Shown: piece after piece, positions 1,148-10,953 of the stretch
How positions within the stretch are numbered: position 1 is the stretch's first letter
How the letters are laid out: the number at the start of each line of letters is the position of its first letter
Assembly: GCA_903901395.1 (NCBI GenBank)
Contig: CAIUQW010000387.1
Location: 1-11,636 of the forward strand
Direction: 5' to 3'
From: an uncultured Chlorobiales bacterium
GTDB lineage: Bacteria; Bacteroidota; Chlorobiia; Chlorobiales; Chlorobiaceae
Length of the DNA stretch: 11,636 bases
Translations under genes and position numbers: made by a program
The notes under the pieces: generated by a model
Databases searched by the model: none
Seen by the model: only the letters and a program-made list of their open reading frames with translations
Told to the model about the DNA's origin: nothing

Positions 1148-1966
1148 TCACCCCTGCGGTGCTTTCTCGAACTCGGGATAGAAAATCCGCTCGATGCCAA
1201 CCGCCTTGCCGGTCTCGACGTCGAGCGTGAGCAGCACGGCGGAAAGATGCACGTCGTCCGTGGCGCATTCATATTTGTGCGGGGTCTGGTAGAGCATCCG
1301 GTCAACTGCTGACTTGACCTGCATGCCGATCACCGAATGGTGCGGACCGGTCATGCCTACATCGGTCAGGTAGGCCGTGCCTTTCGGGAAGATGCGCTCG
1401 TCGGCGGTCTGCACGTGGGTGTGGGTGCCGATCACCGCCGACACGCGGCCATCGAGGTACCAGGCCAGCGAGAGCTTTTCGGCAGTCGCTTCGGCGTGAA
1501 AATCGACCACGACCAGCGATGACTGCTCCTTTGTCTGCTTGATTACCCAGTCCGCCGTGCGGAACGGGCAGTCGATGGGGTACATGAAGGTGCGCCCCTG
1601 AAGGTTCAGCACCGTGATGTTGCCGAGGCCGCGCGGAAGTTTGTACACGCCGAAACCCTTGCCGTACGTACCTTTTGGGTAGTTCTGGGGCCGCAGCACC
1701 TTTTCGTGCGACTTGAGCGTCTCGAAAAAGTTGAAGTTGTTCCAGGTGTGGTTGCCGCCGGTCACCACGTCCACGCCCGCTTCGAGCATCAGGTTCAGGG
1801 CTTCGAGGCTCATCCCCTTGCCGTTATGGGCATTCTCGCCGTTGCAGATAACGAAATCGACCTCGTATTTCGAGATGAATCCCTTGAGCATCCGGCTGAC
1901 CATCTGAAGTCCGGGATTTCCGACGACGTCACCGATAAAAAGAATGTTGGCGGTTTTTGCTGACAT
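1148..1966 (-). CDS. YmdB/TIGR00282-family metallophosphoesterase
   Basis: This 272-residue cytoplasmic protein belongs to the calcineurin-like metallophosphoesterases of the YmdB group, whose Bacillus member hydrolyses 2',3'-cyclic nucleotides. The substrate here is not known. The metal-binding motifs are all present: GDVVG (Asp13), NGENAHNGKG (Glu44, Asn45), GGNHTWN (Asn72, His73), DFHAEATAEK (His157) and GTHTHVQTAD (His182, His184). Length fits the family, about 260 residues. The frame stays open upstream to 2110, but those 48 extra residues resemble nothing, and the family begins just before ILFIGD, so I chose the ATG at 1966. No strong ribosome-binding site precedes it. The stop lies against the insertion-sequence remnant, so any original downstream neighbour or terminator may have been lost. 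Confidence 0.92.
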   Translation of the reverse strand: MSAKTANILFIGDVVGNPGLQMVSRMLKGFISKYEVDFVICNGENAHNGKGMSLEALNLMLEAGVDVVTGGNHTWNNFNFFETLKSHEKVLRPQNYPKGTYGKGFGVYKLPRGLGNITVLNLQGRTFMYPIDCPFRTADWVIKQTKEQSSLVVVDFHAEATAEKLSLAWYLDGRVSAVIGTHTHVQTADERIFPKGTAYLTDVGMTGPHHSVIGMQVKSAVDRMLYQTPHKYECATDDVHLSAVLLTLDVETGKAVGIERIFYPEFEKAPQG

Positions 1967-2560
1967 GACAAAGGCTGAGAATAAGTTACAGGCAGGTACG
2001 ATTTGACTCTGCAAAGGTACGCAAAGAGCGGCGTATTCCGAAAAAGGATTCTTCAAAGCAGCGGAATAGCGCTTGATCGTTGAAACCTCGCCACCAGATC
2101 GCCATATCATCGATGCCCGCTCTCTGTCGCCATCGATATTCCTCTGTTTCTGACAGTTACAGCCACAAGCCGGCTGCTCGATTCAGGTCACCTCCGTGTG
2201 CGTCGGACGTATTCATCCAGAAACAAAAAGCTTTGTCTGCCGATCATTCTTCGCTGTATAATACGGCAGATCCGTTCCTCCTGACGCAAGGCCAGCAAAT
2301 CCACCGCTTGGTGAAGCGCCTCGATATTCCCGCACCGCTCTTCGCCTGACGACAATATGCAGTGATTTCTTGACAGGATAAGCTTGTCATGCAGATCGAA
2401 TAAAAATATGGAACCGCCCCTCCTTTTTCGCGTCAAATCAGCCACCTTACGTTATCCTTCAGATAATGCTTGCGTTATAGGTTGAGGAACTGGCTGCATG
2501 ATTCGTAGCATTCGATTGCGTATTACGAGGTTATGTAACTGACGCTGCTCAGTTGCCTTT
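1967..2560. other. Gene-poor spacer, about 600 bases
   Basis: Between the metallophosphoesterase and the nitrilase gene I see no confident gene, RNA or repeat array. The only candidate is the small minus-strand ORF at 2188-2445, listed separately. The plus-strand open frame across 2080-2349 has no recognisable motif and no ribosome-binding site. GC is lower than in the flanking core genes. The spacer may mark the left edge of the accessory cassette. Confidence 0.5.
2188..2445 (-). CDS. Doubtful small hypothetical protein (85 aa)
   Basis: A short minus-strand frame starts at GTG (2445-2443), preceded by GAAGGA at 2460-2455 with a 9-base spacer, which is a reasonable ribosome-binding site. The product is basic at both ends (starting MADLTRKRRGG, ending YVRRTRR) and has two cysteines in the middle. 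The part DKLILSRNH...CGNIEALHQAV faintly recalls one repeat of the YegP/DUF1508 fold (a beta hairpin followed by a helix with an N/G-I pair), but two residues would have to be inserted and I do not trust the match. It could be a small gene, a decayed gene or chance. Confidence 0.28.
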   Translation of the reverse strand: MADLTRKRRGGSIFLFDLHDKLILSRNHCILSSGEERCGNIEALHQAVDLLALRQEERICRIIQRRMIGRQSFLFLDEYVRRTRR

Positions 2561-2589
2561 TTGATTATTGCGCCGAAAACACGTATTAT
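2561..2589 (+). promoter_or_regulatory. Candidate sigma-70 promoter of the nitrilase cassette
   Basis: TTGATT (2561-2566) and TATTAT (2584-2589) are separated by 17 bases. They match the -35 and -10 consensus at 4/6 and 5/6 positions. Transcription would begin near 2596, giving a leader of about 47 bases before the ATG at 2643. It also argues against the TTG codon at 2568, which lies inside the promoter. No operator-like palindrome was found around it. Confidence 0.45.
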
Positions 2590-2642
2590 ACAGCAAGCAG
2601 TACCCCAACAGACAGACTTCCACAACCGGCATCTTCCCGCTT

Positions 2643-3902
2643 ATGGACAAAGTCGCCGAGTTCATCAACACCCGCTGCTTCCGGCAGGCGCTGGCACGCT
2701 TGTGTCGGCTGGCGCAGGAGCCGCTGCCTGACGGAAGACGCAATCTCGATGACTGGGAACTGATGTACTCGTATTCACAAGTTAGCTTCCTTCTTGAGAC
2801 ACTCGACCATGAACAGACTGAAACAGTCACGCAGTCCGATATCGAGAGCGATCCGCTACTTTGGCTGCAAACCATCGATGAACTCTGCCACCGCGTCTTT
2901 GGCCCGGATAGCACCGCTCCGCATGATTCCATCAACGACGGATTCGGAAAATCCAAAGTACTTCAGCTCCACCCCGGTTTCGGAGGCGGCAAACTGACCG
3001 GGCAATTCGGCAATCTCTCCTACTGGCTGAAACATCACCGTGTTATTCCACTCGACAACATTCACGGTATTCCGGTTGATCTCAGCGACATTCCATCAGG
3101 TCACAAGGAATGGATTGCCTCCCGCTTCGAGACTGAACTATTCAGAATCGGCATCGTCCACTTCACTGATAACCTCAAGCTCGACATATGCTATACAGAT
3201 AACAGGTTCTTCATCTGCAATGGTATCAACGATGCAGAGCAACGGCTTGCCGCCGCGCTTGAGCATATCAGAAAAGCTCATGAGACGGGCGTTCATCTTC
3301 TCATCATGCCGGAGATGACCATCACTGCGGACATGCGTACAGCAATCAGTGAGCGGATGATGGATCTTTCACTCATGGACGGTGAAGATCATGATCTCTC
3401 GGTTCCGCTTATCGTTCCTGGCAGCTTTCACGAACAATGCGACAGCAGATGGCGGAACCACGCCGAGGCGCTTTGCGGGCTCGATGGCGTCACCATTTTC
3501 GGTTCAGACAAACGGGAAAGAGTCACTTTCAATGATTGCGGTGAAATGATCGAATCCTCGCCAACACCGATTACTTGCCTTGCCTCACCCATCGGAGTGA
3601 TTGGCATGACCATCTGTCGCGACCTGTTCATGGGAAGTTCTTCTTCGGTTCTGCAATCATTGCCCCTCGACTGGTTACTGGTGCCAAGCATGAGCGACAA
3701 ACTCGGGCCTCACAAAGCAGCTGCGAAAACGCTGCACGATACGAGAGGAACGGTTATCGCCGTAGCCAATCAGCAAATGCCTGACTCGATGAAATTTGAC
3801 CAGGGATTCGTCTATCACCATGAAGTTGAAGACGGTGAACCCGGATTGAGCATAATCACCGTTGAAAAACGAACAAATTCTCATTTGAGAGTGGTGAGAT
3901 AA
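2643..3902 (+). CDS. Nitrilase-superfamily (carbon-nitrogen hydrolase) protein with unknown N-terminal region
   Basis: This 419-residue protein ends in a carbon-nitrogen hydrolase fold, the family that breaks amide or nitrile C-N bonds through a Glu-Lys-Cys triad. All three residues are visible: Glu224 in LLIMPEMTI, Lys290 in FGSDKRERV and Cys325 in GMTICRDLF. A later NQQMP element is typical of the last strand. The roughly 190 residues before it, rich in Trp, Leu and His, match nothing I recognise. No signal peptide or membrane segment is seen. The ATG at 2643 was chosen because a promoter lies just upstream; an in-frame TTG at 2568 would add 25 residues. Neither start has a clear ribosome-binding site. 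The gene is first in line with the winged-helix and NACHT genes, 74 bases ahead. Nitrilase domains occur in defence proteins such as UG1/DRT type 1 reverse transcriptases, so a role in conflict is plausible. The substrate is unknown, and a plain metabolic amidase cannot be excluded. Confidence 0.85.
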   Translation: MDKVAEFINTRCFRQALARLCRLAQEPLPDGRRNLDDWELMYSYSQVSFLLETLDHEQTETVTQSDIESDPLLWLQTIDELCHRVFGPDSTAPHDSINDGFGKSKVLQLHPGFGGGKLTGQFGNLSYWLKHHRVIPLDNIHGIPVDLSDIPSGHKEWIASRFETELFRIGIVHFTDNLKLDICYTDNRFFICNGINDAEQRLAAALEHIRKAHETGVHLLIMPEMTITADMRTAISERMMDLSLMDGEDHDLSVPLIVPGSFHEQCDSRWRNHAEALCGLDGVTIFGSDKRERVTFNDCGEMIESSPTPITCLASPIGVIGMTICRDLFMGSSSSVLQSLPLDWLLVPSMSDKLGPHKAAAKTLHDTRGTVIAVANQQMPDSMKFDQGFVYHHEVEDGEPGLSIITVEKRTNSHLRVVR

Positions 3903-3976
3903 AAGCCGCGAAGCTTTTTTCGGCTAAATAATGTTAAATTGTTCTTAAAGAAAAAACCTTAGAATAGTTTAGCATC

Positions 3977-4594
3977 ATGAGCACGCTGAATCTCAATGTC
4001 AGTGACCCGGCAATGCTGGTCGATAGAGTGACACCGGCTGAATTGCTGGTCGCGATCCGTGAACTCGAAAAGTGGGGTGATAACGAGCTGAACGCCGTCA
4101 ACCGGATGATTGCCGTCTGGTCGGCAAGAGCGATAGCCCATCCGGGAGACCGTGAAGGCATTTCGGAACTGCAACGTCTGATTCATTATGCGCTGAACAG
4201 AGCCAAAGCTTCGTCAACTCTTTCTGCGGAATATCGATACCGTTGGCAGGCAACCAGCGACATGCTCGAAGCGCGACGCCTCAACCTCGCCAACGCTGAT
4301 CCGAAAGCCCAGATCGCCCGTCGTCATGTGCCCGAAATTCTTCAATACCTTCTCAGCTCGGGAGCTGGGGAACAACTTCAGTCCGGTCTCGTGGAGCATC
4401 TCGGCGTCACCACAGGGCGTGTTACCCAGCTCATCAGCACGCTCGAAGCCAATGGACTCGTCACAAAACGAAAGCATGGGCGGGACAATCTCCTGAAACT
4501 GACTGAAACCGGATTGCTTCACGCCAAAAGCCTCGAACAGAAAAACAGGAGCGAAGTCACTCGCGGCGCGAGTTTTCTGAGGAGTGCATCATGA
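3977..4594 (+). CDS. Winged-helix (MarR-like) protein of the NACHT cassette
   Basis: This 205-residue cytoplasmic protein has a helical N-terminal half (about residues 18-110) of no known family and a winged helix-turn-helix at about 115-185. The HTH reads SGLVEHLGVTTGRVTQLISTLEANG (137-160), in two parts around the turn at Gly143, followed by a wing (LVTKRKHGRDNLLKLTETG). This is the MarR/ArsR-like layout for binding duplex DNA. Its stop overlaps the start of the large NACHT gene as ATGA (4591-4594), so the two are probably translated together. That tight link suggests either a repressor of the cassette or a DNA-binding partner of the large protein. The 74-base gap upstream is A/T-rich and has a weak 4-5-bp hairpin at 3904-3924, which is too weak to call a terminator. 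No Shine-Dalgarno is seen before the ATG at 3977. Confidence 0.82.
   Translation: MSTLNLNVSDPAMLVDRVTPAELLVAIRELEKWGDNELNAVNRMIAVWSARAIAHPGDREGISELQRLIHYALNRAKASSTLSAEYRYRWQATSDMLEARRLNLANADPKAQIARRHVPEILQYLLSSGAGEQLQSGLVEHLGVTTGRVTQLISTLEANGLVTKRKHGRDNLLKLTETGLLHAKSLEQKNRSEVTRGASFLRSAS
4578..4594 (+). promoter_or_regulatory. Ribosome-binding site and ATGA overlap of the NACHT gene
   Basis: GGAG at 4581-4584 lies 6 bases before the ATG at 4591, inside the end of the winged-helix gene. The start ATG and the upstream TGA share the four bases ATGA. This fixes the start of the large gene and is the usual signature of translational coupling. Confidence 0.75.
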
Positions 4595-7500
4595 CACCCT
4601 TCACGGTCACATTCTACAGCTACAAAGGCGGCGTCGGGCGGAGCCTCTTGGCCGCCAATATTGGCGTGCTGTGCGCCCGGCGTGGCAAGACGCTGCTCTG
4701 GGACCTCGACATCGAAGCGCCGGGGATGCACAATATTCCCGGTCTCGATCCAACGCGAACGATCAGGGAGGGTTTTTTCGAGTGGCTCGTCGCCTGGCAG
4801 GAGTCGAAGAAAAGCGCGAAGGAGGCTGATTACACCAAGCTCGTCGGGCTTGCCTGCCAGACGCCGATTTCCACGCAACTTTACATTCTGCCTGCTTTCG
4901 GAGAAAAGAAGGACTTCGCCGGGCTGTATCAGGAGGTTCAGTGGGATGATTTTCTCGTGCGTGACCTCGACAGCGGCCTCACCCTTTTTCGCCGTGCGCT
5001 CGATGCGTTCGGCGAGGCTGGATTCGAGACGGTGATTCTCGACTCGCGCACCGGCATCACCGACATCGGCGGTCTGCTCGCCGCGCTGCTGCCGCACGCT
5101 ACAGTGCTGGTGGGCAACTATGGACGCCAGAACACCAAAGGACTTGCCCATGTCTGGAAAGCGCTGGAACTGGCCAGCGAAGGCAAGCTCAAGCCGCGCG
5201 CGCCACTATCCGACCTGACGCGAATTCTCGTTGCTTCGCCGATTGCCGACAATACTCAACTGCGGGCTGCCGGTGAGTCGATCTGGAAAGAGGCTTTCAA
5301 AATCGAATTGTCTGAGCTGATCACCATTCCCTTTGAAGGAAATCTTCTTTTTACCGAGGAGCTGTACGCCGCGACGTTACCGGACAGCCTCGTCGCGGAA
5401 GCCTATGGTCGGCTCGCATCGAGAATCGAAGCCGTCCGCCAGCAGGTGATCGCCGAAACGGAGTCGGCGCGGCGAAGCGCACAGGCGCGGCCTGACCTTG
5501 TTTCCCGGCCCGGCAGAAGCACGGTGGAGCAGGGCAAGAGCTTCGAGGAGCGGGTAGCGCACCTGTTGCGTCTGCTTGGTTACAGCGTCGAGCGGGAGCA
5601 GTTGATCGACAGCAACCGCATCGACCTTGTCGCCCGCAAACGCGCCGATTTCGGGCGGGAGGAGGTCTATTTCGTGGAGTGCAAGGATCATCAGGCGGTC
5701 ATTCCCAAAGAGACCGTGCAGATTTTCAGGACGTGGCTCGACGGCCCGGCGGCGCGGCAGATGCAGGCTCGCGGCATGGTGGTGGCGGCAAAAGATTTCA
5801 GCCCAGCGGCCCGCAGCTTCGCGCGTGAACAGGGGTTGCAGGCGCTTACCTATGACGAGCTGGAGCGAAGTCTCTTCGACTTTTCTCCTTATCTCGCCCG
5901 CATCCGCCAGCGCTACGAGGCCAGCCCCATCGCGGCGGCTTACGTCGATCAGCTCCTCAAACTCGAAAAAAAGCCAGACGACCAACCGGCGCCGATGCTG
6001 CCTCACGCGCTCGACTGGATCGGCGGCGCTGGCAGCCGGTTGTGGCTGGTGCTCGGCGATTACGGCACCGGCAAAAGCACGCTGGTGGAGCGGCTCGCCT
6101 ACGAGCTGGCTCGCAGGTGCGAAGTCGATCCCGAAAGCCCCGCGCCAATCGCCATCAACCTTCGCAGCTTCCCGAACGCCATTTCCCTTGAAAGCCTGAT
6201 CCGCGAGCATCTCGAAGCTGAACTTCGCGCCGTGCTCAATCCCGAAATCGTCTTGCACCTGCTCGAAGCGGGGCGCGTGGTGCTGCTGCTCGACAGCTTC
6301 GACGAAATGGGGGTCGCGCAGGCCGGGCGCAGCGTCGAGGAGCAGTTCCGCCAGCTCGCCCGCCCCACGGCAAGCGCCGGACGCACCGCTCGCGGCAACC
6401 GGATTCTCATCACTTCGCGCAGCCACTTCTTCCGCGACACCAAAAGCGCCCGCCGCGCCGCCGAGGGCAACGACGAGCTGTTCGAGCCTGATTCGCCGCT
6501 CGGCAAGGCCGCCCGCGCCTTCGACGCCACCATCGACACCTTGCCGGTTTTCACCAAAGAGCAGATCACCGAGTACCTGCGCAAGCGCCTCGGCACCATC
6601 GAGGGCGACAAGGCGGAGCGATTCATCGAAGAGACTTATGGCCTCCCCGAAATCGCTTCGACGCCGCAATTGCTCGACATGATCGTCGCCTCCCTGCCCG
6701 ACCTCATGAAGCAGGGCGACAAGGTGACCACCGCCTCCCTCTACCTCACCTACACCAACCGCTGGCTGAACACCGTGCGGCTGAGCCAGGGCGAGGTCAA
6801 CCCGGAGCACATGCGCGAGCTGCTCGAACGCATGGCCTGCGAACTCTGGAGCCGCCCGAAGAACGAGATTCACTACGCCGACCTCGCCGCGCTGTTGCGC
6901 AAGGAGCAGATGCTGAACCGAAACATCGACAGCGAGCGCGTCGATCTCGAAATGCGCACCGCCGCCTTCCTCATCCGAAGCGCCGACGGCTACTACCGCT
7001 TCTCCCACAAAAGCTTCCTCGAATTCTTCTTCGCCCGCGCACTGTTCCGCGCATTGAAAGAAGATCGCTTCGCCGAAGCGCTTGTGTTTGGAAGGATTAA
7101 TCAGGAGGCCACCGATTTCTTTCTCGAACTGGTTGAATCGGAGAAAGAAACACCTGACAAGCTGACTCTTGCGATTCGGTCGATTCTTGAGAATCCATAT
7201 CGGACAACAGTTTCTGAGAATGCTTTGCTTATAGGATACGATACGGCATTGTTCCGCGTTCACCCCCCGAGCAAAAATGAGTTTGCAAACTATTACAGAA
7301 GTAGTGATAAACGGTTCGTTCCTTTTCTTCAAGAACTCATTCCCCCAAAAGCTCAGTTACAGGGAGCGAACCTGTCTGGCGTCATTCTCAGGAACTTAGC
7401 CGCTGATGATATCAACTTTTCAAATGCGAACCTTATCCTATGCGATCTTGACTCAGCTCAACTCAGAAAAGCATCGTTTGAGAGTTGTTTTCTCGATGAA

Positions 7501-8922
7501 GCATCACTTAATATGGCACACCTTAGTGATGCCAACCTGAACAACATTTCTGCCAGATGCATCAAAGCCTTGAAAATCGACTTGTCAGGATCCAGTTGCC
7601 AGGATGCTAACTTTGAAGGTGCTGACATTCACCATGCCAAAGCACTCAAAACAAACCTCTCTGGAGCAAATCTGAAACATACCAGACTTGCAGGTGCAGA
7701 CTTCACCAATGCGAATCTTTCATCGGTCAATCTTACAGGAGCAACGTGGCCGAAAGCGAAGGGATTGCCGTACAATAGCGGATATCATGCAACAAATCCT
7801 GTCATCGAGAATCTCATTATAGGTAAGCATTTCAGTATAACTCAAGATTGCGCCTTCTCTCCTGACGGAACGCTGATCCTCATCGCCGGTAGTGACTACA
7901 GTGCCCATCTATGGGAGACTTATTCCGGTAAACATATTCAGAAATTTTTTGGACACTTTTACGGAATCAACGGATGCCGATTTTCGCCCGATGGAACAAA
8001 CATCCTCACGGCTGGTAATGACAGATTAGCTGTACTTTGGGACGTCCAGTCAGGTCAAAAAATTCTTTCTTTTGAAGGACATTCCGCCGAGATTTTGGCC
8101 TGCGCTTTTTCTCCCAACGGATACGCTGTACTCACTGCTGACCAAAACGGGATTGCACTGCTTTGGGATCGCCATTCAGGCAAACTGCTCAAGCGTTTTG
8201 AAGGCCATTCTGGCGCTATCTACTCTTGCGCCTTTTCACCCGATGGCAACATGATCGTTACCTCTGGCGAAGAGAGCACCGCACGGCTCTGGGATACTCG
8301 TTCCGGAGAAATAATTCGATCATTGGAACATTATTCTGGCTCGATTCGCGCCTGTGGATTCGCGCCAGACGGAAAAACTATCATCACGGCTAACGATGCT
8401 GGAATTGCCCACCTTTGGAACACTGCATCAGGCAAAGAAATCCGACAGTTTGACGGCCACGGCGACTCAATGCTCGCTTGCGCTTTCTCACCCGACGGTA
8501 ACGTACTTCTTACCGGCGGCACTGACGGCACTACCCAACTTTGGGACATCGACTCAGGTGAAGAAATCTGGCGAATTGCAGGAGATTCAAAGCACCAGAT
8601 ACTCACTTGTGCATTTTCCCCTGATGGAAACTTCATCCTCATCGGAGGTACTGACGGCACGGCACGGCTCTGGAACATCGTCTTAAAGCAAGAGATAATG
8701 TGCCTGTCGATCGAATACACCTCTTGGCTCTCATACTCGCGCATCGACAACCGCTGGGATGGCGAGGGGGAGTTGACCGAGCAGTTGCGCTATGTCGATG
8801 AGGCGGAAGAGCCGACGGATGATCCTGGCTGGGTGCCGCGTAACTGGGTCGCGGCTGACCTGCCCGAGCTGAAGGGGCTGACCCCGTTGCCGGAGCTGAT
8901 GAAACTTGCAGAAAAGCAGTAG
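4591..8922 (+). CDS. Multidomain STAND protein: KGGVGR ParA-like NTPase, Mrr nuclease, NACHT, pentapeptide repeats, WD40
   Basis: This 1443-residue protein is probably a sensor-switch-effector of a conflict system. (1) Residues 1-290 are a ParA/MinD-like NTPase: variant P-loop KGGVGRS (12-18), Walker A' DLDIEAPG (38-45) and DSRTGITD (151-158). (2) Residues about 305-430 are an Mrr-type restriction endonuclease: FEERVAHLL helix with Glu320, Asp345 in RIDLVA and Glu363-Cys-Lys365 (ExK). (3) Residues about 480-815 are a NACHT NTPase: Walker A GDYGTGKST (489-497), Walker B LLLDSFDEMG (565-574), TSR (608-610) and the C-terminal motif FSHKSFLEFF (804-813). (4) Residues 921-1052 are degenerate pentapeptide repeats. 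(5) Residues about 1078-1372 are seven WD40 repeats, each with CxFxPxG and ending LW. (6) A GC-rich tail of about 70 residues follows. No signal peptide or membrane segment is seen. NACHT proteins with nuclease effectors and repeat sensors are known anti-phage proteins; the specific trigger and target here are unknown. Base composition drops near codon 830 and rises again near codon 1385, which points to sensor exchange. Confidence 0.93.
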   Translation: MTPFTVTFYSYKGGVGRSLLAANIGVLCARRGKTLLWDLDIEAPGMHNIPGLDPTRTIREGFFEWLVAWQESKKSAKEADYTKLVGLACQTPISTQLYILPAFGEKKDFAGLYQEVQWDDFLVRDLDSGLTLFRRALDAFGEAGFETVILDSRTGITDIGGLLAALLPHATVLVGNYGRQNTKGLAHVWKALELASEGKLKPRAPLSDLTRILVASPIADNTQLRAAGESIWKEAFKIELSELITIPFEGNLLFTEELYAATLPDSLVAEAYGRLASRIEAVRQQVIAETESARRSAQARPDLVSRPGRSTVEQGKSFEERVAHLLRLLGYSVEREQLIDSNRIDLVARKRADFGREEVYFVECKDHQAVIPKETVQIFRTWLDGPAARQMQARGMVVAAKDFSPAARSFAREQGLQALTYDELERSLFDFSPYLARIRQRYEASPIAAAYVDQLLKLEKKPDDQPAPMLPHALDWIGGAGSRLWLVLGDYGTGKSTLVERLAYELARRCEVDPESPAPIAINLRSFPNAISLESLIREHLEAELRAVLNPEIVLHLLEAGRVVLLLDSFDEMGVAQAGRSVEEQFRQLARPTASAGRTARGNRILITSRSHFFRDTKSARRAAEGNDELFEPDSPLGKAARAFDATIDTLPVFTKEQITEYLRKRLGTIEGDKAERFIEETYGLPEIASTPQLLDMIVASLPDLMKQGDKVTTASLYLTYTNRWLNTVRLSQGEVNPEHMRELLERMACELWSRPKNEIHYADLAALLRKEQMLNRNIDSERVDLEMRTAAFLIRSADGYYRFSHKSFLEFFFARALFRALKEDRFAEALVFGRINQEATDFFLELVESEKETPDKLTLAIRSILENPYRTTVSENALLIGYDTALFRVHPPSKNEFANYYRSSDKRFVPFLQELIPPKAQLQGANLSGVILRNLAADDINFSNANLILCDLDSAQLRKASFESCFLDEASLNMAHLSDANLNNISARCIKALKIDLSGSSCQDANFEGADIHHAKALKTNLSGANLKHTRLAGADFTNANLSSVNLTGATWPKAKGLPYNSGYHATNPVIENLIIGKHFSITQDCAFSPDGTLILIAGSDYSAHLWETYSGKHIQKFFGHFYGINGCRFSPDGTNILTAGNDRLAVLWDVQSGQKILSFEGHSAEILACAFSPNGYAVLTADQNGIALLWDRHSGKLLKRFEGHSGAIYSCAFSPDGNMIVTSGEESTARLWDTRSGEIIRSLEHYSGSIRACGFAPDGKTIITANDAGIAHLWNTASGKEIRQFDGHGDSMLACAFSPDGNVLLTGGTDGTTQLWDIDSGEEIWRIAGDSKHQILTCAFSPDGNFILIGGTDGTARLWNIVLKQEIMCLSIEYTSWLSYSRIDNRWDGEGELTEQLRYVDEAEEPTDDPGWVPRNWVAADLPELKGLTPLPELMKLAEKQ

Positions 8923-9205: not shown

Positions 9206-10801
9206 CTAAAACGACCGCAATACCGTATCCGCGAGGTAGTGCTTGTCGTCCTTCTCCGGGAAATCGGTGGTGTAGTGCAGGCCGCGCGATTCGCGGCGTT
9301 TGATGGCGCTCTGAATGACGAGGCTCGCGACCTTGATGATGTTACGCAGTTCGATGATTTGCGGCGTTATCCTCGTTTTTTTGTAGTACGCCTCGGTCTC
9401 CTCCTTCAGGAAGTCGATGCGGCGGCGGGCGCGGTCGAGGCGCAGGTCGCTTCGCACGATGCCGACGTAGTCGTTCATGATCGCCTGCGTTTCCTTTTTG
9501 TTGTGCGCCACCAGAATCCACTCCTCGGGGTTCGAGGTGCCGGAGTCGTCCCAGTCGGGGAAGTCGCGCTCGTGGTGGATCGCGTTCAGCTCCTTCCGAA
9601 TTTCCTCGCTGGAGCGCCAGGCAAAGACCAGCGCTTCGAGCAGGGAGTTGCTCGCCAGGCGGTTCGCGCCGTGCACGCCGGTGCAGCTCGTTTCGCCGCA
9701 GGCGTAGAGGCGCTCGATGGTGGTGCGCCCGAGACTGTCCGTGCGTATGCCGCCGCATGAGTAGTGCGCCGCCGGAACCACCGGAATCATCTCCTTCGTC
9801 ATGTCGATGCCGAAGCTGAGGCAGGTCTCGTGGATGTGCGGGAAGTGCTCCTTCACCTTTTCCGCGTTGATGTGCGTGACATCGAGAAAGACGCATTCGT
9901 CGCCGCTTTTCTTCATCTCCGAGTCGATAGCCCGGGCCACGATGTCGCGCGGGGCGAGGTTTTCGCGGCGGTCGTAACGCTGCATGAACGCCTCGCCCTC
10001 CTTGTTGCGCAGGATGCCGCCGAAGCCGCGCACCGCCTCTGAGATGAGAAAGGACTTGGCTTTCGGGTGGAAAAGGGAGGTCGGGTGGAACTGGATGAAC
10101 TCCATGTTGGCGATCTCCGCACCGGCGCGATAGGCCATCGCGACGCCGTCGCCTGTGGCGATATCCGGGTTCGTTGTATGCAGATAGACGTGGCCGAGGC
10201 CGCCCGAGGCGACCATCGTCACCTTCGAGAGAATCTTTTTCGGCTTGTGGTTGAGCGTGTCGAGCACGTACGCGCCGTAGCAGGCGATGTCGTTGGTCTT
10301 GATGCCGAGATGGTGCTCGGTGATGAGTTCGAGCGCGTAGTGGTGCTCCAGCAGCGTGATGTTGGGGTGCGCGTTCACGCGGGCGAGCAGCGCCGTTTCG
10401 ACCTCGCGACCCGTCAAGTCCTTCGCGTGCACGATGCGGTTGCGCGAGTGGCCGCCCTCCTTGCCGAGGTCGAGCGAGTGATCGGGGGCGGTCGTGAACT
10501 CCACGCCAAGTTCGATGAGGCGGCGGATGTGCGCCGGGCCTTCGTGCACGAGGATGCTCACCATTGCTTCGTCGCACAGCCCCGCGCCCGCGTCGAGCGT
10601 GTCGGCGATGTGCAGCTCCGGAGTGTCGTCGCGGGCGATGGTCGCGGCGATGCCACCCTGAGCCCAGTTGGTATTGGAGGTGGAACTCTCTTTTTTTGTG
10701 ATGATCGTGACCGTGGCGTGGTCAGCCATGTTGATGGCGAAATAAAGCCCTCCGATGCCGCTGCCGATAACCAGCACATCGGTTTTCACTTCCTGTGTCA
10801 T
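9206..10801 (-). CDS. nadB: L-aspartate oxidase
   Basis: NadB oxidises L-aspartate to iminoaspartate with FAD, the first step of de novo NAD synthesis; NadA then makes quinolinate. The 531-residue length fits. Visible family motifs are the FAD dinucleotide-binding loop GSGIGG (13-18), the signature NWAQGGIAA (from 45), [38 protein letters not shown], and the C-terminal FAD-binding segment [20 protein letters not shown] (about 365-384). NWAQGG and the soluble C-terminus favour NadB over the flavoprotein subunits of succinate dehydrogenase or fumarate reductase. The frame is open to 10879, but the ATG at 10801 sits just before the conserved VLVIGSG strand, so the longer form was rejected. The gene is read towards the NACHT gene. 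Upstream a possible -10 (TATATT, 10885-10890 minus strand) is seen without a good -35. The pdaD terminator separates it from the next gene, so it probably has its own promoter. Confidence 0.96.
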
Positions 10802-10953
10802 GTCTCTGTATGGCGTATTTGACGATTGCCCAGCGTTGCCTCGCCATCGTGGCGTACTTTTCGGACGACGCGGCAACAACCGGTAATATAGTCAGTTCGA
10901 ACTCAACTTCAGGGTCATGCGACCCGGCAAACGAACGAATGCCCTGCTACGGC

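Follow-up and report, generated by a model that had tools for sequence, protein, structure and literature searches.

A nitrilase and a winged-helix protein as fixed neighbours of a predicted nuclease-NACHT receptor in green sulfur bacteria

The NLR-like receptors of bacteria have mostly been studied as single-gene alarms, and to our knowledge little is known of how their dose is set or which partners they need. Nitrilases are not common in antiphage systems, according to passages of PMC13275509; a reverse transcriptase-nitrilase system also appears in part of PMC9122126, and NACHT sensors diversified by diversity-generating retroelements (DGRs) are described in portions of PMC10907252. Here we consider an 11,636-nucleotide stretch of DNA (the window), which is the whole of contig C387 of an incomplete genome, G000 (2.53 Mb in 457 contigs, 77.8% complete), from an uncultured Chlorobiales bacterium. 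It carries a row of three genes, the trio, encoding a nitrilase, a winged-helix protein and a giant NACHT protein. Judged from its relatives in other genomes, the trio is a conserved accessory cassette built on a known receptor plan, to which two fixed partners are added as new features along with a private operator-like element; its sensor part is evolving. No earlier account of a trio like this came up among the results listed from open-licence papers, and a preliminary description of the window, made from its letters alone, likewise knew of none. The genes and the sites that precede them are as follows:

2561..2589, plus strand: candidate sigma-70-type promoter of the nitrilase gene, TTGATT-17-TATTAT, matching the consensus at 9 of 12 positions
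2643..3902, plus strand: nitrilase-superfamily (carbon-nitrogen hydrolase) protein of 419 aa, with a nitrilase fold at residues 160-415 and a conserved extra part at residues 1-160
3924..3972, plus strand: 49-bp inverted-repeat element, CTAAATAATGTTAAATT..TTAGAATAGTTTAG, candidate operator/promoter for the winged-helix and receptor genes
3977..4594, plus strand: winged-helix protein of 205 aa, with a conserved helical N-terminal part (about residues 1-110) and a MarR-type winged helix
4591..8922, plus strand: STAND/NACHT receptor-like giant of 1443 aa, assigned by domain searches

The open reading frames (ORFs) and domain searches of the window place all three genes where the preliminary description had put them. 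The nitrilase gene is followed, after a gap of 74 bases, by the winged-helix gene, which runs into the giant through an ATGA overlap; these last two genes overlap by 4 bases in all six loci for which this was computed. What stands of the earlier interpretation is the adjacency of the trio, its accessory status and the lack of a prior description; its further view, that the three genes form a single transcription unit, is not supported, since a conserved element sits inside the 74-base gap. Of its other proposals, phage defence is a probable function, and a second output through the nitrilase is one of several possible readings. The match of the promoter candidate ahead of the nitrilase is little above chance, and locus G008a has TTGACT-17-TATCAT at the equivalent position.

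The case for the cassette begins with its distribution over 98 genomes of the class, a sample that takes in green sulfur bacteria and their closest kin. Hits to the nitrilase profile occur in 21 of these, the winged-helix protein matches the same 21, and the KGGVGR-Mrr part of the receptor (the core) also matches 21, namely 20 of that set plus G062, where a contig edge truncates the receptor gene. Fisher tests over the 98 genomes, which ignore relatedness, link the nitrilase to the winged helix at p 8e-22 and to the core at p 1.3e-18. There are 22 nitrilase loci, two of them in G008 (L009 and G008:C39 being counted as a single record), and in 20 all three genes follow one another on one contig, broken or cut genes included. 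The trio of G078 is split over two contigs, and G011 has the nitrilase and the winged helix with no receptor within the 16 kb fetched; this G011 pair (G011:C25, L046:71-2012), without the gap element, lies beside a RecD2-like gene, so named by eye. The preliminary description had staked its candidate system on finding nitrilase or winged-helix homologues next to KGGVGR/NACHT genes in other genomes, and they do adjoin such genes in 20 of the 22 loci. It had also considered that the trio might be core metabolism shared by all relatives, which is at odds with its distribution: about one-fifth of the genomes in the class have it, and 2 of the 21 in the genus have it at the nadB site.

Over a wider phylum spread of 394 genomes the nitrilase adds one distant match (G271) and the core two weak ones (G189, E 2.8e-16; G289, E 9.1e-18). 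The distant nitrilase homologue (G271:C11, L057:8567-10988; hhalign probability 97%) is followed by a 311-aa protein without a Pfam match, with a patatin gene nearby; hhalign of this neighbour to the winged helix gives a probability of 0.6%, and G271 is not counted as a second nitrilase/winged-helix pair. Residues 1-480 of the receptor are matched at E <= 1e-10 by 315 proteins, and among the 120 of these that were listed are Zoogloeaceae, Accumulibacter, Azonexus, Dechloromonas, Ramlibacter and other proteobacterial labels, at 42-61% identity. Those nitrilase matches that bear a taxon name are all from Chlorobi except one from Magnetococcales; most carry no such name. The nitrilase had no match on plasmids or in viral contigs, and the receptor none in plasmids (searched with the core part) or in viral contigs (searched with the window protein and one homologue). 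KGGVGR proteins of G005, G027, G073, G083 (C35) and G085 (C15), 27-33% identical to the domain of the trio, belong to other families. That of G073 (G073:C173, L062:2684-6806) is a different KGGVGR ATPase followed by two asparaginase-family genes, a second KGGVGR protein beside amide hydrolases.

The gap element consists of two 15-bp half-sites in inverted orientation with about 20 bases between them. Alignment of 21 gaps showed the element in all 20 that precede a receptor and not in that of G011. A relaxed form of its pattern fits 20 of 20 receptor-preceding gaps as against 1 of 4200 shuffled gaps; a strict form fits 16 of the 20, the exceptions being G008b, G013, G037 and G068. Across the 98 genomes the strict form has a single occurrence in each of 16, always in the trio gap, and a reversed control pattern has none. 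The half-sites are 92% and 81% identical over the 20 loci and the rest of the gap 50%; over 14 loci their mean identities are 93% and 82%, with 56% for the stretch between them, and the fourfold-site identities are 40% (nitrilase), 45% (winged helix) and 53% (core). An RNA hairpin was considered and rejected: when 14 of the 20 elements were used, near-duplicates being left out, 0 of 15 pairs had changed on both sides and there was no compensatory pair. Because of this lack of RNA covariation the element is read as a DNA site; the window also holds no Rfam family at gathering scores. The winged-helix protein is of MarR type by Pfam (MarR_2, 29.7 bits with a cut-off of 27; DUF7343, 37.9 with a cut-off of 27.6), and its structure model (predicted local distance difference test, pLDDT, 85.8; predicted template modelling score, pTM, 0.56) finds MarR/ArsR regulators in Foldseek, weakly, at E about 3e-3 with none below 1e-3. 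From its position and conservation, the element at 3924-3972 is probably the operator of the winged helix itself; the natural reading is that it is likely to be also a putative promoter for the winged-helix and receptor genes.

The giant has the make-up of an NLR-like receptor, resembling in build the NLR immune receptors of animals: a NACHT domain, an N-terminal effector (Mrr, after the KGGVGR domain) and a C-terminal repeat sensor. Its domains are:

4600..5166, plus strand: KGGVGR variant of a MinD/ParA-type ATPase domain, residues 4-192 (NF047398, above cut-off)
5530..5868, plus strand: Mrr-type nuclease domain, residues 314-426, with D345 and E363-C-K365 (Mrr_cat, E 3.8e-16)
6040..6438, plus strand: NACHT NTPase with Walker A GDYGTGKST (K495) and Walker B LLLDSFDE (48.2 bits, cut-off 26.7)
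7282..7746, plus strand: pentapeptide repeats, about residues 898-1052 (Pfam)
7828..8730, plus strand: WD40 repeats, the presumed sensor, about residues 1080-1380 (7 WD40 matches)

KGGVGR is invariant in the 17 rows of the alignment, two of which are one protein. The usual motif is KGGVGK, and because its lysine at the last position is here replaced by arginine, the domain is probably not a normal ATPase. K365 of the nuclease is found in 16 of the 17 rows (V in G083), and K495 and D568/D571/E572 of the NACHT domain in all 17, which leaves Walker A and B intact. The PADLOC library holds Avs and DRT models; five families of PADLOC 2.0.0 match the giant at E up to 1, none of them named Avs.

The C-terminal half of the receptor comes in three kinds among the relatives. 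Pentapeptide/WD40 ends are found in the window, both G008 copies, G042, G065, G075, G079 and G080; DUF4062-NACHT-FGE (lectin) ends in G034, by Pfam, and in G051, G064 and G084, by similarity; and a short kind (666-940 aa) in G053, G066, G068, G078, G083 and G085. Since a separate DUF4062-NACHT-FGE-like gene lies 0.3-3.5 kb downstream in five loci (G064, G068, G079, G083 and G085, with Pfam run on that of G079), the DUF4062-NACHT-FGE kind likely arose by fusion with this neighbour gene. DUF4062 has been reported as a TIR-like NADase in part of a preprint (PMC13174449).

Some of these lectin ends bear the marks of a DGR. The FGE end of the trio receptor of G034 differs from a template at 17 of 120 bases, and all 17 are template adenines (27 of the 120 are A; p 4e-14); this template stands beside a reverse-transcriptase gene (Pfam RVT_1) on the same contig, about 75 kb from the receptor. 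In G084 all 13 of 13 mismatches fall at template adenines (25 A in 87 bases; p 5e-9; the stretch was anchored by eye), with the template in L143 (G084:C8) and an RVT_1 match nearby on the contig. G051 showed no template in the four stretches compared. An ungapped comparison for G064 gives 35 mismatches, 16 of them at template adenines, the variable region having by eye one extra codon, and we do not count it as support. The receptor of the window shows no sign of being a DGR target, the variable region of G034 matching contigs C446 and C8 of G000 and not C387. Such sensor exchange and retroelement targeting in the relatives fit a fast-evolving recognition part. Both could not have been visible to the preliminary description, which had one sequence; the operator-like element is likewise absent from it.

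The elements themselves merit a few words. G034:C4:535589-540487 (L074) and L143 (G084:C8) are DGRs with a template, a reverse transcriptase and NACHT-FGE targets, and when set against a single template, three variable regions of G034, that of the trio receptor included, show 17, 15 and 13 changes, all at template adenines. Contigs C446, C8 and C386 of G000 (L076, L077 and L078) carry three NACHT-match ORFs ending in an FGE/lectin-like GGSW..GFRVVRPS region, and contig C375 (L145) has a reverse-transcriptase match. G000 as a whole has eight NACHT matches above the Pfam cut-off, that of the window included, in 2.5 Mb of incomplete genome.

The three genes do not share one history. Compared with the window, G013 has a core that is 89% identical, a nitrilase at 42% and a winged helix at 54%. 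For the 14 loci with all three genes, the nitrilase tree and the winged-helix tree agree on five groups; the core tree has different groups, which partly follow the type of sensor. G011, which lacks the core, is placed differently in the nitrilase and winged-helix trees. Approximately unbiased (AU) tests were made on groups named after inspection of the first FastTree trees. The nitrilase data reject the core's grouping G013+G000+G008a (p 1e-74), and the core data reject the nitrilase's grouping G013+G008b (p 3e-5). In a second contrast, the core data reject G034+G065+G080 (p 7e-51) and the nitrilase data G034+G064+G084 (p 2e-11). Because the tree groups differ and the AU tests reject, our reading of the alignments is that the nitrilase/winged-helix pair recombines against the receptor gene yet stays beside it.

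How might such a cassette work? The reading we prefer, at a probability of a little under one half (roughly 0.45), is that the giant is an NLR-like nuclease receptor with an exchangeable sensor, which would detect phage and cut DNA under the control of the nitrilase and the winged helix. In the resting state the element at 3924-3972 would be occupied by the winged-helix protein, which would thus repress transcription of its own gene and of the receptor. The nitrilase, with a promoter to itself, would either hydrolyse a small amide metabolite or produce it, and the helical N-terminal part of the winged-helix protein would read this metabolite, so that expression would follow the metabolic state; this amide-to-winged-helix step is the least secure part of the mechanism. 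On infection, a phage component would bind the pentapeptide/WD40 part (elsewhere the lectin part) and the NACHT domain would oligomerise; the Mrr domain would then cut DNA, stopping the phage and possibly the host, with the KGGVGR domain, its P-loop lysine lost, perhaps serving as an adaptor. In favour of this reading we list that G011, the sole locus with the pair and no receptor, is also without the gap element. A bolder version, which we regard as rather speculative, would make the cassette a metabolically gated, quasi-adaptive NLR, in which the amide signal of the nitrilase and the private operator of the winged helix set the receptor dose, and the sensor end is exchanged and, in some lineages, hypermutated in trans by a retroelement tens of kb away.

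The nitrilase deserves separate scrutiny. Pfam finds CN_hydrolase only in this ORF, and at 419 aa it is not fused to a reverse transcriptase. Its score with PF00795 (18.4 bits) is below the gathering score of 23.2, for which reason we place it, from the profile comparison, on a divergent branch of the superfamily. The tetrad E224-K290-E301-C325 (register from an alignment to 5kha, the choice of catalytic lysine being inferred) is retained by 40 of the 42 full rows, in sequences with as little as about 30% identity; the alignment had 47 rows, from which 5 gapped at the tetrad were dropped before the count. Such retention of the catalytic residues also fits a second toxic effector, which, once the receptor fires, would break down some essential molecule with an amide group or produce a toxin, as proposed for DRT1, whose nitrilase domain is described in parts of PMC13275509 as an abortive-infection effector with a substrate that is not known. 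By analogy this is possible, but we think it less likely than control of the receptor: the nitrilase is a separate gene upstream of what is likely the receptor's own promoter element, it groups with the winged helix and not with the receptor, and no PADLOC 2.0.0 model, the DRT models included, matches it at E up to 1. DRT1 is also not among the best 50 Foldseek or the best 50 VIA rows, a point to which we give no weight.

The surroundings of the cassette bear on a further alternative. The genes flanking it in the window are:

1148..2110, minus strand: TIGR00282 (ymdB-like) metallophosphoesterase (NCBIfam)
9206..10879, minus strand: nadB, L-aspartate oxidase (TIGR00551, 595 bits, cut-off 453)

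The nearest named relative of the window is Chlorobaculum; homology to the Chlorobaculum relative (87%) starts at 2561 and spans the trio and nadB, and the left flank had no match in that comparison, so that on this alignment position 2561 is a recombination or insertion boundary. In genus g1, which we take to be Chlorobaculum, nadB is present in 21 of 21 genomes and adjoins the trio in G000 and G008; no trio match appears in the other 19 nadB stretches, which span about 6 kb apiece except for one of 3.7 kb, and G011 and G013 carry their genes at other places, none of these sites being the men cluster. In genus g2, presumably Chlorobium, the gene immediately upstream of the nitrilase is menH in 15 of the 16 loci with a visible upstream side (the contig of G085 ends 316 bases upstream of the nitrilase). 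Of the 11 stretches extending 5 kb or more past the receptor, 8 have menD on that side, the exceptions being G042, G064 and G085. The men genes were named by NCBIfam on L045 only and elsewhere by similarity to its proteins. G042 has no men gene beside its trio, neither menH nor menD; in G050 menD and menH are about 110 bases apart with no trio, an empty site; and in nine other genomes with a full flank and no trio found at this place, neither menH nor a trio lies within 1.5 kb of menD. Because of these nine, we read the menD-menH junction of genus g2 as a variable insertion site that holds the trio, other sequence or nothing.

Such frequent menaquinone neighbours in genus g2 could mean that the position of the cassette is functional, and that it is a regulated stress, cell-death or metabolic module rather than a phage defence. 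This we judge improbable, as the trio of G042 does without menH and menD, the junction of G050 does without the trio, and genus g1 has the trio elsewhere; moreover its patchy presence, decay, sensor exchange and retroelement targeting resemble conflict and not metabolism. Least probable of all, by a small step, is a nitrilase-fold protein that is mainly structural, an oligomer scaffolding or tethering the receptor or the winged helix with catalysis secondary, which would suit the conserved extra part in its first 160 residues, the typically oligomeric state of nitrilase enzymes and the DRT1 nitrilase domains at the core of its filament (passages of PMC13275509), but for which the full EKEC tetrad, kept down to about 30% identity, would not be needed.

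Several observations weigh against a phage-detecting receptor under nitrilase/winged-helix control. The nitrilase is broken or split in 7 of the 22 loci (G036, G037, G042, G066, G068, G078 and G085), and because of this we regard it, from its reading frames, as dispensable or decaying in some lineages. This breakage weakly tracks truncation or absence of the receptor (Fisher p 0.0498, from a hand-made table of 17 loci, in which the 5 of the 22 whose receptor runs off the end of a contig, G008b, G013, G036, G065 and G075, were left out and the missing receptor of G011 was scored as broken). A Mantel comparison of distances did not separate the pair from the core (0.66 for nitrilase with core, 0.69 for nitrilase with winged helix), and adjacency alone could explain the joint travel of nitrilase and winged helix. 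Proteobacterial records often contain homologues of the receptor at 42-61% identity, which may lack the two partners; the giant matches its PADLOC candidates PDC-M28B, PDC-S02, ZorD and mad8 only partially; and nadB and the phosphoesterase that flank the window's trio are not known defence genes.

The interest of the cassette is that its receptor has two constant partners and occurs naturally with different sensors, and that a candidate operator is defined and the catalytic motifs are intact, so that control, sensing and killing become separable. If our reading is true, a further kind of nitrilase-bearing defence system would stand beside the reverse transcriptase-nitrilase ones, and a nuclease-NACHT receptor of green sulfur bacteria would be linked to retroelement-driven diversification.

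Among the described systems, the trio shares with the Avs/bNACHT proteins (plan in part of PMC10907252) an N-terminal nuclease effector, a central NACHT domain and a C-terminal repeat sensor, as well as a patchy distribution; unlike them, it has an extra KGGVGR domain, two dedicated partner genes, a private element and a sensor of pentapeptide and WD40 repeats. With DRT1 and the class 3 UG reverse transcriptases (passages of PMC13275509) it has in common a nitrilase-superfamily domain with its catalytic residues kept in a likely immune system, but here the nitrilase is a stand-alone gene with its own N-terminal part and there is no reverse transcriptase in the trio. Predicted-inactive MinD/ParA-like domains joined to a STAND-type NTPase, like that of the giant, are known with AP-ATPases from portions of Kaur et al. 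2020 (PMC7159879), a paper in whose text the word nitrilase is absent. The receptors of G034 and G084, in turn, end in adenine-varied FGE/lectin regions like the DGR-diversified NACHT receptors with C-type-lectin ends of PMC10907252; they differ in that this type carries KGGVGR-Mrr-NACHT-DUF4062-NACHT and the nitrilase/winged-helix partners, with the G034 template about 75 kb off, and the receptor of the window has WD40 repeats instead. Alike in build are the KGGVGR-Mrr-NACHT-pentapeptide-WD40 proteins labelled Zoogloeaceae, Accumulibacter, Azonexus and others, which have the same Pfam domains and, among the 120 of 315 matches listed, 42-61% identity over residues 1-480.

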